Shown: piece after piece, positions 26,566 to 53,881 of the stretch
Position numbering within the stretch: position 1 is the first letter of the stretch
Layout of the letters: every line of letters begins with the position of its first letter
NCBI GenBank assembly: GCA_002844335.1
Contig: CP019155.1
Location: 62,001-126,000, forward strand
From: Haloarcula taiwanensis
Lineage (GTDB): Archaea > Halobacteriota > Halobacteria > Halobacteriales > Haloarculaceae
Direction: 5' to 3'
DNA: 64,000 nt
Made by a program: the position numbers and the translations under genes
The notes under the pieces: model-generated
The model's database searches: none
Told to the model about the DNA's origin: nothing
The model's input: the letters and a program-made list of their open reading frames with translations, nothing else

Positions 26566-26963
26566 GTGACGGACTCGTTCCCGGCGAGGTCATCCCGGAC
26601 GAAGGGACAGTGACGCTGAACGAGGGCCGGGAAACGACCGAGGTGACCGTCGGGAACACGGGCGACAGACCCTCGCAGGTCGGGTCCCACTTCCACTTCT
26701 TCGAGGCTAATGCAGCCCTGGAGTTCGACCGCGAAGCGGCCATGGGGATGCGGCTGAACATCCCCGCCGGGACGGCCGTCCGGTTCGAGCCAGGCGACGA
26801 ACAGACCGTCGAGCTTGTCGAAATCGGCGGGAAGCGCCGCGCCCACGGGATGAACGGCCTCGTGAACGGGAGCGTCGACGGCGACACGAGCGACGCGGTC
26901 GAGCGCATGCGCGCGGCCGGATTCGGAGACAGCGGGGCCGACGACGAGGAGGGAGCGGAGTGA
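26562..26963 (+). CDS. ureB: Urease beta subunit
   Basis: A 133-residue small urease subunit. '[25 protein letters not shown]' style text (Gly-Asp-Arg-Pro-x-Gln-Val-Gly-Ser-His-x-His) is the beta-subunit signature, and '[15 protein letters not shown]' follows. The tail beyond residue 105 is acidic, an adaptation to high salt. Gene order B-C-A differs from the bacterial A-B-C. Its stop overlaps the ureC GTG start by four bases. Confidence 0.95.
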
Positions 26964-28666
26964 CACGCGACATCGACCGCGAGAACTACGCCGAACTGTA
27001 CGGGCCGACGGAAGGCGACAAAGTTCGGCTCGGCGACACGGAGCTGTTCGCCGAGGTCGAGAAGGACCTGCGGACCCACGGCGACGAGGCGGTGTTCGGC
27101 GGCGGCAAGACCCTCCGTGACGGGCTGGGCATGGCACCCGGCGTCACGCAGGCGGAGGGCGCGCTCGACTGGGTGCTGACGAACGCGACGATTATCGACC
27201 CCGTGCTGGGCATCGTCGCCGCCGACATCGGCATCCGAAACGGCGAAATCGCCGGCATCGGGAAGGCCGGCAACCCCGACACGATGGACGGCGTCGACAT
27301 GGTCGTCGGCCCGTCGACGGACGTGTACCCGGCCGAGGGGAAGATCGCGACCGCCGGGGGCCTGGACATCCACATCCACTTTAACTCCGCACAGCTCCAC
27401 GAAAACGCGCTGTCGGGCGGTATCACGACGATGCTCGGCGGCGGGTACGGGGGCGGCGCGACGACGACCACGACCGGCCCGGAGAACATCAAGCGCTTCC
27501 TGCAGGCAGCCGAGGCGTGGCCGGTCAACGTCGGCTTCTACGGGAAGGGCAACGCTTCGGAACCGGGACCGCTCCGCGAGCAGGTCGCGGCCGGGGCTTG
27601 CGGGCTGAAACTCCACGAGGACTGGGGGTCGACGCCCGAGACCATCGATACCTGCCTCGAAGTCGCCGAGGACGAGGACGTGCAGGTCTGTATGCACACG
27701 GACACGCTGAACGAGGCGGGCTTCTTGGAGAACACCTTCGGGGCCGTCGACGGCCGGACCATGCACCTGTTCCACATCGAGGGTGCGGGCGGCGGCCACG
27801 CGCCGGACATCATGGAGATGGTCGGCGAGCCGAACATGCTCCCGTCGTCGACCAATCCGTCGATGCCCTACACCGACAACACGTTCGACGAGCACCTCGA
27901 CATGGTGATGGTGTGTCACCACCTCAACCCCGACGTGCCAGAGGACGTGGCCTTCGCAGAGTCGCGGGTGCGGGCGGAGACCATCGCCGCCGAGGACGTC
28001 TTGCACGACATGGGGGCCATCTCGATGATGACCTCCGACTCACAGGCGATGGGGCGGATGGCCGAGGTCATCCCGCGCACCTGGCAGACCGCCTCGAAGA
28101 TGAAGTCCCAGCGCGGGCCGCTCCCCGAGGACGAGGGGACCGGCGCGGACAACCACCGCATCAAGCGCTACATCTCGAAGTACACCATCAACCCCGCCAT
28201 CTCTGCGGGCATCGACGAGTACGTCGGGACGCTGGAACCGGGGAAACTGGCCGACATCTGCCTCTGGGACCCCGCCTTCTTCGGCGTCAAGCCGGCGATG
28301 ACGTTCAAGGGCGGCTTCCCGGTCCACTCCGAGATGGGCGAGGCCAACGGCTCGCTGATGACCTGCGAGCCCATCATCCAGCGCGAGCGGGCCGGCGCGG
28401 TCGGCAAGGCCAGACACGCCCTCTCGCTGTCGTTCGTCTCCCCGGCGGCCGCCGAGGCCGGCGTCGGCGAGGAGTACGGGCTCGACTCCCGCGTCGTGCC
28501 GATAGAGGGCGCGCGAACGCCCGGCAAGGACGACATGGTGTACAACGACTACTGCCCCGACGACATCGAGGTCGACCCCGAGACGTTCGAGGTCCGGGTC
28601 GACGGCGAACACGTCACCTGCGAACCGTCCTCCGAACTACCACTCGCACAGCGGTACCTGCTATGA
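26960..28666 (+). CDS. ureC: Urease alpha (catalytic) subunit
   Basis: A 568-residue nickel amidohydrolase, normal family length, starting at a GTG inside the ureB stop. Nickel ligands are '[17 protein letters not shown]' (two His), the carbamylated Lys in '[15 protein letters not shown]', later His residues, and Asp in '[10 protein letters not shown]'. The mobile flap '[14 protein letters not shown]' has the catalytic His next to Cys. It hydrolyses urea to ammonia and carbamate in the cytoplasm. It is followed by ureA with an ATGA overlap, so the three subunits are coupled. Confidence 0.97.
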
Positions 28667-49925: not shown

Positions 49926-51035
49926 TCAGTCGTCGCTGTCGACTGTCGCCTCGGTGCCGGCGGTACGGACCTGTGTGGCTTCACTCTCCACGTTAACGCC
50001 TTCCCAGTCGTGGTCCGTGTGGTACCCCTCGCGTTCTTTCGCGCTCTGGGCGACACGGATGAACTCCGCCTTATCACGGGCCGTAGCGATGGTCTGTCCG
50101 CCACAGTAGGAGAGTCCGGAGCGAATGCCGGCACAGAATTCCTCAGCCACAGCAGCGACCGAGCCTTTGTACGGAGTCAGTGCTTCGACTCCCTCGTCAG
50201 CGCTGACGTTGTTCTGTTTGTCGTCACGGTCTTCGGCCGCGGCGGTGGTCGCCATCCCCCGCGACCGCTTGTACTGCGTCCCGTCGACTTCGACGATCGC
50301 ACCGGGAGCCTCCTCCGTGCCGGCAAAGAGGCTGCCGAGCATCACGGTATCGGCACCGGCCATGAGGGCTTTCACCGCATCACCAGACGTGCGAATCCCG
50401 CCATCCGCACAGAGGGTGATGTCAAGATCCGCAGCGGCTGTGGCGCAGTCATCGACAGCGGTCAGCTGTGGGACGCCGGCACCCGCGACCTTCCGGGTGG
50501 TACAGTGTGACCCCGGTCCGATGCCGACTTTGACACAGTCGGCTCCGGCGGCGGCAAGGTCTTCAACACCTGCGGGCGTCGCAACGTTGCCGGCGATGAG
50601 GTCAGTGTCGGGAAACTCGTCAGCGAGCGTCTCGACGGCATCAAGCGCCCGCTCAAGATGACCATGGGCTACGTCGACGACGAGCGCATCAACGCCGGCC
50701 GCAATGACGGCCGCGCTCCGCGCCACGTAATCCTCATTTATACCGACGGCAGCACCGACCCGTTCGTCCGCGGTCTTCACTTGCGTGACCTGTTCGGCCT
50801 GTTCGTCCGGCGTCAAGAAGCGATGCAACACCCCAAACCCGCCTGAACGCGAAAGCTCGATTGCCAGTGCTGCCTCTGTGACAGTGTCCATCGCGGCCGA
50901 GACGAGCGGCGTGTCTAGTTCAACGGTTGGAGTAAGGGGCGTCGAGAGGTCGATGTCGCTCCGACTGTCGACCGGTGATCGTTTCGGGACGAGAAGAACG
51001 TCGCCATAACTCAATCCAGTACGTAACTCGTTCAT
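49926..51035 (-). CDS. IMP dehydrogenase/GMP reductase-like protein without CBS domains
   Basis: A 369-residue TIM-barrel enzyme. The catalytic loop '[17 protein letters not shown]' puts the nucleophile at Cys178; '[20 protein letters not shown]' binds the IMP phosphate, and '[10 protein letters not shown]' is the flap start. CBS domains, found in most IMPDHs, are absent and the 'S-H-C' differs from the usual 'S-I-C' of IMPDH and 'S-V-C' of GMP reductase, so the direction cannot be fixed. It stands alone, with its promoter at about 51060-51072. Confidence 0.87.
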
Positions 51036-51140
51036 GCCCCGCTGCTAGTGTACCGCCTAGAACAAAAGTAGGTCGGATTGGAGAGTTCCCCCGGAAACGT
51101 GAGTGGCCGAAACAGAGGTTGCGCTCCAGCAAGGAAGCGG

Positions 51141-51272
51141 ATGACGGGTGGCGGTGGGCACCGTGTGTGCCACCCACTGCAGTCAGAGGCACGACCGGGT
51201 TCTGAATCCGAGGCATGGGGTGAAACGCGTGGGCTCAAAGTATGAAGAAGCCCAGAGCGGGAGCCAGAACCC
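51141..51272 (-). ncRNA. Candidate structured RNA, unit 1
   Basis: Minus-strand reading starts GGGTTCTGG at 51272 and pairs its first eight bases with CAGAACCC at 51197-51204. Inside this are two more stems. A 7-bp stem GGGTGGC/GCCACCC follows at about 51146-51175. A CATATCTTTT box (51297-51306) lies about 29 bases upstream of the 5' end. Part of a three-unit family; see findings. No open frame is conserved among units. Confidence 0.45.
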
Positions 51273-51400
51273 GTGTTTACGTAAGCCGCCGTTGGTCATA
51301 TCTTTTGTGGTAAGCCTTAACACAGTGGCAGGTCTGCACAATCCAGTCAGCACCGGAACGCGCAGCTCTGCCGATCACACGAACGAATGGTACGTTGCTG

Positions 51401-51514
51401 TGGGGTGGGAGAGGTGGGTGCAACGCACCATCGGAAGTCGTCGAAACTGACGATGGGGTCCGGCCCGGGCAATCGTGTGGGAAAAGCCAGCGCGATTGGA
51501 CAGGCTCAGAACCC
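51401..51514 (-). ncRNA. Candidate structured RNA, unit 2
   Basis: Minus-strand 5' end GGGTTCTG (51507-51514) can pair with 51456-51463; one G-U pair works only on the minus strand. A hairpin ATCGTC...GACGAC(T)...CGAT follows, then GGTGC-AAC-GCACC, read on the plus strand at 51415-51429. A strong TATA box TTTATATATA (51533-51542, minus) is centred 24 bases before the 5' end. A 79-codon frame begins here (ATG at 51516) but is not shared with the other units. Confidence 0.5.
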
Positions 51515-51657
51515 ATCTAGCTCCGCTACCAGTATATATAAAATGCTTGCGGGATCCGTTCGCTGTCTGTTGGTTTGACCGCAAGTCGCACAGTTCTCAC
51601 GGGCGTTACTCCCGTCCGGTCGCGTCAGCAATACACCCGAATGCTACCAGCGACGGA

Positions 51658-51790
51658 ATGGTGGGCAGCCGGGGGGAGTGTGCACCGCACCATTCACGGT
51701 CGTCATCCACGACGACGGGTTCTGGACCCGGGCCGTTTGCTGAGGGTGCCCGGATTCAGTGGGGGAGAGGTGGCGCGGGAACCAGAACCC
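51658..51790 (-). ncRNA. Candidate structured RNA, unit 3
   Basis: The 5' GGGTTCTGG (51782-51790, minus) pairs perfectly over nine bases with 51717-51725. GTCGTC-x-GACGAC hairpin and a GTGC-ACC-GCAC hairpin follow. A perfect 10-bp inverted repeat AACCCTATTA-GAGA-TAATAGGGTT (51786-51809) covers the 5' end. An AT box GTTATTCC at about 51814-51822 lies about 28 bases upstream. Confidence 0.5.
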
Positions 51791-51925
51791 TATTAGAGAT
51801 AATAGGGTTACTTGGGAATAACGACTGTGACGTTTTAGTTCATTTTATTGGCTCTGTGGTTACTGAGCGTCCGCAATCGCAGCATGGGCAGTCGCGATGA
51901 GCGCGCACCCGCTTGTCAGCCGGGA

Positions 51926-53881
51926 TTATTCCACGGCTTCGAGGCCCGTAATCTCGAATCGTGTCCCACCCATCGAACTCTCAGTTGCGTGAATCTCCCA
52001 GCCATGAGCGTCAACGACTCGTTTGACGATGTTGAGACCCAGACCAGTCCCCGATTCGGAAGTCGAGTAGCCGGCCTCGAACACTTTTTCCCGGTCCTCG
52101 TCGGGGATGCCTGGACCGTCGTCTTCGATGTAGAATCCGTTGGCGTCTCCGAAAATCTCGCCGACTACCACAGTAACGTCTAGACCTGCGTGATCAATCG
52201 TGTTCCGGAACAGGTTTTCGAGCAGGTGCCGGAGTTGGTCGGGGTCAGCTTTTATCACTGGCTGTGCATCGGCCCCACAATCACAGTACAGCTCGGCCTC
52301 GTCTGCAGGGTCAGAGACAAGCTTCCACGCAGCCGCAGCGACTGCGTCGATTGCGACAGGTTCCAGCGACCCGATCTCTTGTTGCTCCCGCGCGAGCCAG
52401 AGGAGGTCCTCGACAATGCGTTCCATCCGATCAGTCGCGGTCTCGATCACATCGAGATGATCGCTCGACTGTTCGGCTTGAACGAGTCCAAGCCGACCCT
52501 GTATGACGTTGAGCGGGTTCCGCAGGTCGTGGCTGACAGTTGCGGCAAACTGCTCCAGCTGTTCTTTTTGATCCTGCAGTTCCCGTTCACGCCTCGTACG
52601 TTCGGCTATGTTTCGACCGGTGCCGACAAGCCCTATCATGGTACCGTCGGCGTCAGTTAGTCGGTCAGCAGTGAACTCGTAGGGAACGCGGTTCCCCTCT
52701 GCGGTACGGAAATCCGCTTCGATGGTCGAGTGCCCCGTTGTGAGCGCCTCCTCAATCGCCTTAGAGACTGCCTCCCGTTCCTCTTCCGGAAAAAGACTGC
52801 GTACGTCAAGATCCGTCATCTCTTCGTCGGTGCACCCGGCCAGCTTTTCGAAGTGTTCGTTACAGCGCTGGACGTTGCCTTCGGAATCAAGCACGTAGAA
52901 TATATCGGCAAGTGAATCGAGCGCCTGATCGATAAAAGTCCGTTCTGTCCGGAGTTCGTTTCGGATCTTTAGCGAGTGTATGGCGTGCGAGATGCTGTTC
53001 CCGAGTTCGGTGAGTAGCTCCTGTTCGTCCTCTGCGAAAGCGAACGGACGGGACGAATAGACGCACAGAAGGCCATAAAGCGTGTCATTGTATTCTAGCG
53101 GAACCGCAGCACTGCTCCGATAGTCGCGGTCGAGTGCTTCCTCTCGCCAGACCTCGAACGCCGGGTCAGCCTGAATGTTCTGCGACGTAGCAATGCGTCG
53201 GTGCTGGACGGCCCTGCCCGCGGGGCCCTGTCCGGTCGGAGAGTCGTCCGCCGTGACAACAATCGTATCGAGATACTCGTCTTCGACGCCGGCCCAGGCC
53301 TGTGGCTCGATTCGGTCTGTCTCAGGATTGGGCTCGCCGATCCAAGCAAAACGGTAGGGTTCAGAGTCGCTAATAATCTCACAGACACGCGTTTTGATCT
53401 CCGAGAGCGAACTCGCCCGGATGAGAGCCTGGTCGATACTGCTTACGAGAGCGCGAACCCGTTCAAGTTCAGCAGCGCGCTGATTGGTGCGGTACTGGTC
53501 GACGGCGTTTTCGATACGATTTGCGAGGAGTTCGTATCGTTCCGTGCCGTGCCCTTTCCGCAGATAGTCGGTTGCACCGGCGGCAATAGCATCGCTGGCG
53601 ACCGCTTCGCTCCCCTCTCCGGTAAAAAGAATAAACGGGAGATCAGGGTACTCCGTACGGACAGTTTCGAGGAGTTCGATGCCATCTGTCTCGGGCATCC
53701 GGTAATCGCTGACAATACAGTCAATAGACCGCGTCGCGAGTCTGTCGAGCCCTTCAGCAGCACTCGTCGCAGGGACGACAGTGAGTTTATCTGATTGCTG
53801 TGTGAGTATTTCTGATGCCACATCTAAAAAGTCCGGTTCATCATCGATATGAAGCACAGCGATACTCGACATCTCTGACAC
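51926..53881 (-). CDS. Hybrid sensor histidine kinase: receiver-GAF-PAS-HisKA-HATPase
   Basis: A 651-residue protein. Residues 8-125 are a receiver with an intact phospho-acceptor ('IDCIVSDYRMPETDGIELL') and the acidic pocket 'LHIDDEPDFL'. A GAF domain follows (about 140-310), then PAS ('FYVLDSEGNVQRCNEHFEKL', about 320-435). The phospho-His lies in 'AATVSHDLRNPLNVIQGRL', and the ATPase has 'HLLENLFRNTIDHAG', 'IEDDGPGIP' and 'GTGLGLNIVKRVVD'. The receiver at the N-terminus would be an input from another kinase. It is divergent from the 1299-residue kinase (212 bases apart), so both may be controlled together. Confidence 0.9.
   Translation of the reverse strand: MSEMSSIAVLHIDDEPDFLDVASEILTQQSDKLTVVPATSAAEGLDRLATRSIDCIVSDYRMPETDGIELLETVRTEYPDLPFILFTGEGSEAVASDAIAAGATDYLRKGHGTERYELLANRIENAVDQYRTNQRAAELERVRALVSSIDQALIRASSLSEIKTRVCEIISDSEPYRFAWIGEPNPETDRIEPQAWAGVEDEYLDTIVVTADDSPTGQGPAGRAVQHRRIATSQNIQADPAFEVWREEALDRDYRSSAAVPLEYNDTLYGLLCVYSSRPFAFAEDEQELLTELGNSISHAIHSLKIRNELRTERTFIDQALDSLADIFYVLDSEGNVQRCNEHFEKLAGCTDEEMTDLDVRSLFPEEEREAVSKAIEEALTTGHSTIEADFRTAEGNRVPYEFTADRLTDADGTMIGLVGTGRNIAERTRRERELQDQKEQLEQFAATVSHDLRNPLNVIQGRLGLVQAEQSSDHLDVIETATDRMERIVEDLLWLAREQQEIGSLEPVAIDAVAAAAWKLVSDPADEAELYCDCGADAQPVIKADPDQLRHLLENLFRNTIDHAGLDVTVVVGEIFGDANGFYIEDDGPGIPDEDREKVFEAGYSTSESGTGLGLNIVKRVVDAHGWEIHATESSMGGTRFEITGLEAVE

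Follow-up and report, generated by a model that had tools for sequence, protein, structure and literature searches.

The LhrC1-5 RNAs of Listeria monocytogenes are multi-copy sRNAs whose UCCC loops pair with the start regions of mRNAs (PMC4132741). Among haloarchaea, the intergenic sRNAs of Haloferax (PMC5892119, PMC5852579) are small RNAs with BRE/TATA promoters. The predicted RNAs which we describe here resemble the latter in these features and are found in the genus Haloarcula, two species of which, H. marismortui and H. hispanica, have long served as model archaea. To our knowledge, multi-copy sibling sRNAs have hardly been described in archaea, and none of the Haloferax intergenic sRNAs is known to us to form a tandem, multi-class family.

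The window, i.e. the whole stretch of 64,000 nucleotides of Haloarcula taiwanensis which was analysed, has an 890-base gene-free region with three related units on the minus strand, placed between an IMPDH/GMP-reductase gene and a kinase gene. In the following list R1 is a covariance model based on A1, a sequence-only alignment of 26 class A copies, i.e. of the unit 3 type; the hairpins P1, P2 and P3 are described below.

49926 to 51035, minus strand: flanking gene with an IMPDH/GMP-reductase domain, outside the RNA family (Pfam)
51139 to 51272, minus strand: unit 1, class B RNA gene (P1, CGUGCCUCUGAC box and 3' hairpin), 134 nt (R1 match, class alignment A4)
51385 to 51514, minus strand: unit 2, class A' RNA gene (P1, P2 and P3), 130 nt (R1 match, fold, class alignment A3)
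51656 to 51790, minus strand: unit 3, class A RNA gene (P1, P2 and P3), 135 nt (R1 match with E 1.1e-28 in its own genome, as a member of the training set; fold)
51926 to 53881, minus strand: flanking response-regulator/GAF/PAS/histidine-kinase gene, outside the RNA family (Pfam)

The sequence GGGTTCTG begins at 51272 in unit 1, 51514 in unit 2 and 51790 in unit 3, minus strand, exactly where an earlier note on this DNA had placed it. The start-to-start distances are 242 and 276 bases, in agreement with the spacing of about 240–280 bases in an 890-base gene-free region given there. Each unit corresponds to a predicted RNA of about 134 nt. The 15-base motif GGGTTCTGGNYCCNG, with at most one mismatch, occurs three times in the window, always in the unit region, while 0.17 occurrences are expected. 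A perfect palindrome, CCCTATTA-TCTC-TAATAGGG, extends across the start of unit 3 in positions 51788–51807 and is probably accidental, because it is absent from the nearest relative (L014).

The covariance model detects 125 matches in 15 of the 32 Haloarcula genomes, from 1 to 19 in each, with 10 copies in the genome of the window. The earlier note had proposed a model built from the three units; R1, built from class A copies only, recovers all of them: units 1 and 2, which lie outside the training set, are found in their own genome at E 2.9e-5 and 4.7e-5. Unit 3 by itself has orthologues or paralogues in 14 of the 32 Haloarcula genomes, and additional copies appeared when the unit region was searched against its own genome. 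Many copies form clusters of 2–5 on the same strand. The species which carry them include H. vallismortis, argentinensis, japonica, amylolytica, sebkhae and mannanilytica; one genome (G021) has a single divergent copy, which retains all three hairpins and scores 53 bits. The named records in which the sequence occurs belong to plasmids of Haloarcula hispanica, H. marismortui, H. sinaiiensis and Haloarcula sp. CBA1115, and these public records have nothing annotated at that place.

In the order-wide search of 342 genomes, matches at E 1e-4 appear in Haloarcula alone. The family-wide search with R1 gave matches in 17 of 146 genomes, two of them marginal, in other genera and with E about 0.002. 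We take both as chance: the P1 arms are missing from one of them; the other has a GGGCUCUG/CAGAGCCC stem, but an apparent open coding frame runs through it. A search of genome contigs with a 17-mer pattern was positive among archaea in Haloarcula only; its many bacterial matches were also taken as chance. Phage records had no match, and viral contigs had 3 and 10 matches to short patterns.

All units have in common a 5' stem, P1, formed by GGGUUCUGG and CCAGAACCC; the hairpins downstream of it define the classes A, A' and B. Their main elements in the window are the following.

51782 to 51790, minus strand: unit 3, 5' arm of P1, GGGUUCUGG (covarying helix)
51717 to 51725, minus strand: unit 3, 3' arm of P1, CCAGAACCC (covarying helix)
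51699 to 51716, minus strand: unit 3, P2 hairpin GUCGUC-GUGGAU-GACGAC (covariation, fold)
51656 to 51695, minus strand: unit 3, P3 hairpin GAAUGGUG...CACCAUUC with a conserved C-rich loop, CACUCCCCCCGGCUGCC (alignment, covariation, fold)
51385 to 51432, minus strand: unit 2, long P3 hairpin GAUGGUGCGUUGC...GCAACGUACCAUU with loop ACCCACCUCUCCCACCCCACA (fold, class A' alignment)
51182 to 51192, minus strand: unit 1, class B box GUGCCUCUGAC, nearly invariant (class alignment)
51146 to 51175, minus strand: unit 1, 3' hairpin GGGUGGC...GCCACCC, in other copies GGGCGAC...GUCGCCC (compensatory changes)

In class A, P1 has nine outer and four inner pairs. Class A' follows the same plan, and its P3 is a long stem which closes CUCUCCCACCCC; an extra hairpin shared by units 2 and 3 had been noticed before, and in fact both P2 and P3 are common to them. 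Unit 1 has a 3' domain unlike that of units 2 and 3: in class B, P1 is followed by the nearly invariant CGUGCCUCUGAC and by the hairpin GGGUGGC...GCCACCC. The order A, A', B is found again in clusters orthologous to that of the window and in others; in some clusters a variant with GAGTTCC/GGAACTC stands ahead of the other classes. The class B box is also found as an inverted pair (GTGCCTCTGAC) about 150 bases apart, in positions 1071–1082 and 1221–1232 of locus L006 (G000:C2:141994-142157) and again at G000:C4:23662-23825. Both sites are near loci of the RNA module discussed below; the pair might represent another hairpin RNA, or else a partner for the RNAs of class B.

The P1 pairing agrees with the earlier note: it has eight base pairs and a wobble in unit 1, nine in unit 3, and seven of eight in unit 2, with one mismatch. 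The hairpin formed with a partner 60–75 bases on is real; however it represents only the 5' half of an RNA of about 134 nt. When the folds of the units are compared with shuffled sequences, unit 2 stands out with z -6.8 (-6.76), and units 3 and 1 have -2.1 and -1.9. Folding thus supports units 1 and 3 only modestly, so that the case depends on the comparison of copies. In class A, 97.4% of the cells are paired and 14 show double changes, against a shuffle value of 4.4; the sliding controls are all far lower. In class B, 93.1% are paired, with 22 double-change cells against 7.2 in shuffles; a clear example is the compensatory change of GGGUGGC/GCCACCC to GGGCGAC/GUCGCCC. Since the sequences are related, these shuffle counts are not probabilities. 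Class A' has 97.0% of its cells paired, and unguided RNAalifold gives the same three hairpins for its 15 sequences; in these 15 sequences the count of covarying pairs is no higher than in shuffles (82 of 500 shuffles reach it).

The strand of the RNAs is apparent from the wobble pairs. In the P1 stem of A1 (26 class A copies, aligned by sequence only) there are 27 G-U combinations and one A-C. Such G-U combinations can pair in a minus-strand RNA, and read from the opposite strand they become A-C mismatches, hence the RNA strand is the minus strand; the earlier note had argued likewise from the single G-U pair of unit 2. The alignment fitted to the model gives 162 G-U to 35 A-C, a ratio biased by the fit. 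All of 127 matches, with the exception of two weak overlapping ones, lie on the strand of their own cluster.

A typical haloarchaeal promoter, as judged by its sequence, is found at a fixed distance before P1 in 66 non-redundant upstream regions. In these copies a BRE with AA at -35/-34 is followed by a TATA-like box at -29 to -26, with 91–97% A+T at -29 to -27, and by another A+T patch at -12 to -10. Between -42 and -34, 50 of the 66 copies have the motif SRNAA, as compared with 8% of control windows. An AT-rich box before the starts, best in unit 2, was already reported in the earlier note; in unit 2 it corresponds to TTTTATATATA in positions 51533–51543, -29 to -19. The predicted promoters of the three units are:

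51296 to 51314, minus strand: unit 1, CACAAAA-GATATG, -42 to -24 (66-copy frequencies, direct reading)
51533 to 51556, minus strand: unit 2, BRE region and TTTTATATATA, with the TATA box at 51533–51543 (sequence, 66-copy frequencies)
51814 to 51832, minus strand: unit 3, BRE and TATA region, -42 to -24 (base frequencies per position, 66 copies)

These elements fit the BRE, TTWT and WW elements of haloarchaeal promoters (PMC4983044), which places the predicted start at the first G of P1 or within 1–2 bases of it. A scan for sigma-70 promoters found nothing, and this consensus is irrelevant to archaea. The ends of the predicted gene are apparent in a single copy next to phnE, which has 12 orthologues: their identity is 0.80–0.97 over -40 to +139 and 0.33–0.6 outside these limits, with 0.51 directly past +139. 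Upstream of unit 3, the region 51831–51890 (-100 to -41) is also well conserved among orthologues (0.74–0.84); several of them have there an imperfect inverted repeat, CTGCGAT...ATCGCAG, possibly the site of a regulator.

We have considered whether the repeats might be DNA elements, such as palindromic binding sites or MITE-like ends, or else genes for small proteins. The P1 arms are indeed an inverted repeat in DNA and the copies are many, but wobbles restricted to one strand (27 to 1) make no sense for DNA, and the fixed distance of the promoter also speaks against such elements. As for small proteins, none of the frames is open in every unit (22 of 116 have none at all) and their lengths differ by non-multiples of 3, as expected from the earlier remark that no open frame is shared. 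Both possibilities are therefore highly improbable. The comparison of sequences makes us highly confident that we are dealing with real RNA genes which belong to one family, and it supports what the earlier note had suggested, a multi-copy sRNA family on the minus strand with a conserved stem, a diverged loop and its own promoters.

Three groups of loci can be distinguished. In the first one, that of the window cluster, H. hispanica and H. marismortui have the same neighbouring kinase and GMP-reductase genes, but genes of the opposite strand are inserted on one or both sides. In the second group a single copy lies between the gene of a universal stress protein and phnE. Neither of these groups has the module described below, and the position of each is conserved across 12 aligned loci. 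The location of unit 1, on the same strand as the IMPDH gene and about 100 bases before its start, would suit a leader or a riboswitch-like element of that gene. However an ABC-transporter gene of the opposite strand intervenes between the RNA units and the IMPDH gene in H. hispanica, the downstream phnE is on the opposite strand in H. sinaiiensis, and other loci have different neighbours. These gene orientations refute a cis-leader as a general explanation, and for the units of the window it is the least probable of all the readings, with hardly any weight. The genes of the opposite strand beside the window cluster indicate that the RNAs are independent of read-through and are not leaders; together with the phnE orientation in H. 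sinaiiensis they point to an action in trans rather than in cis.

The third group comprises about 18 loci (e.g. L012, L073, L077, L083, L085, L097 and L102), some of them on plasmids pNG400, pNG500 and pHsi117, in which the RNA clusters are part of a conserved module. It consists of a 311-aa coiled-coil protein, proteins of about 70 and 99 aa, the RNA cluster, a PadR-like regulator, a winged-helix protein and a 98-aa protein. With the exception of the PadR-like regulator, the module proteins have no informative match in Pfam or NCBIfam, and their PHROG matches are of unknown function. The neighbours of the module change: they include a cas operon (pNG400), C5 methyltransferases, a TIR protein, a defence-like AAA ATPase and a Schlafen-type protein. 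The link of the module with defence genes is an association only. In pNG500 of H. marismortui (L078, 5044–9269) transposase-like genes split an RNA cluster, and the copies on both sides keep their promoter and strand.

The genome of the window has its copies on contigs of 525 kb (C2) and 100 kb (C4) and none on C1; H. hispanica and H. marismortui have a similar bias towards secondary replicons, and one genome (G028) carries copies on a 3.5 Mb contig. The RNAs could serve the upkeep of plasmid-like or integrated elements, through copy control, silencing or addiction, the other copies being remnants. The location of copies on secondary replicons, in genomes with identified replicons, and the approximately 18 module loci agree with this proposal. 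The IMPDH cluster and the phnE single copy, conserved in position and lacking the module, do not, nor does the possible presence of several clusters on one replicon; we consider it improbable. A related view has about the same low probability, if anything a little lower: the family would be the RNA part of a mobile Haloarcula regulatory module which controls the element or its defence cargo, and its classes would have been recruited later to host loci such as that of the window. According to it, an RNA cluster, two small proteins and a PadR-like regulator would be inserted beside changing defence genes (CRISPR-Cas, C5 methyltransferase, TIR, AAA ATPase).

We hold with about even confidence, by analogy, that the RNAs are sibling sRNAs with a shared 5' stem, whose C-rich loops pair with mRNAs. 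Three separate sRNA genes would be transcribed in the cell from three promoters on the minus strand, each giving an RNA of about 134 nt. The shared, hardly changing P1 would probably be a common handle, for stability or for a shared protein. The 3' halves, which differ by class, would expose conserved C-rich or otherwise fixed single-stranded sequences and provide specificity. Acting in trans, the C-rich loops would be seeds, pairing with G-rich sites near the start codons or in the untranslated regions of putative target mRNAs; several copies under several promoters might allow dosage and conditional control.

In the copies there are 232 runs of at least four C and 16 such runs of G; 156 of the 232 are mostly unpaired in the predicted folds. 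This strong bias suggests pairing with G-rich mRNA sites, as in the UCCC loops of LhrC. The number of C runs is not above that of dinucleotide shuffles (232 vs 219 ± 9), so that C-richness is a property of composition and not a proof of seeds. A crude search for targets of the class A loop, by its reverse complement, yielded 4+4 one-mismatch sites, compared with 3+8 for a reversed control pattern; there was no excess, and no target came to light. In Haloferax 72% of mRNAs are leaderless (PMC4983044); as most haloarchaeal mRNAs lack a leader, there are fewer 5' sites than in bacteria.

The main rival to mRNA pairing is a protein-binding role. The RNAs would be real and act mainly as a scaffold or sponge, which a protein would bind at the invariant P1 and the fixed P2 loop. 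P1 is nearly invariant in classes which otherwise differ, the P2 loop (UGGA) does not vary, nor does the class B box CGUGCCUCUGAC, and a large number of copies is suitable for titration. On the other hand no partner gene is present at every locus, and the strong differences between the 3' halves of the classes would be needless in a pure sponge. We consider this role possible and clearly less probable than sibling sRNAs which pair with mRNAs.

The fixed classes, their fixed order (A, A', B) and their own promoters offer a system in which the divergence of archaeal sRNAs after duplication can be studied, and in which it can be asked whether C-rich loops regulate mRNAs which are largely leaderless. 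The covariance model makes each copy easy to locate and delete. From 10 to 19 structured RNA genes per genome are unannotated in the records of H. marismortui and H. hispanica; strain ATCC 43049 of the former has 17 copies and strain ATCC 33960 of the latter has 10.

No known family had come to mind in the earlier note, and a search of Rfam 15 with the unit region agrees: no family matches it, even at E up to 5. The only match of the window at the gathering level of Rfam is 5_ureB_sRNA, in positions 27113–27405, minus strand, antisense to the gene of the urease alpha subunit (26960–28666, plus strand); most likely the match is due to the conserved coding sequence of urease and not to an sRNA. 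Archaeal C/D box sRNAs have a C box RUGAUGA near the 5' end and a D box CUGA near the 3' end. We rejected this class: a direct reading of A1 shows the P1 stem at the 5' end and no RUGAUGA. A CRISPR array or a CreTA RNA was also rejected: in pNG400 the CRISPR repeats are separate, 3.3 kb beyond the RNA cluster, and they are all that Rfam finds at that locus.

LhrC1-5 (PMC4132741) and the Haloarcula family are alike in having clustered near-copies with their own promoters, lengths of about 110–135 nt and CU-rich (UCCC) or C-rich loops. LhrC is bacterial and has no sequence relation to our family, which has no match in Rfam. The LhrC copies are almost identical, whereas the Haloarcula RNAs form classes which differ in their 3' domains; for LhrC targets and a regulator, LisRK, are proven, whereas the family described here is known from its sequence. 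It also differs from the Haloferax sRNAs: among the 342 genomes of the order it is without convincing match outside Haloarcula. We found no description of it in the open-access literature, although an earlier mention elsewhere is possible. Multi-copy sibling sRNAs are a kind known from bacteria; this family and its three-class archaeal layout appear to be new.
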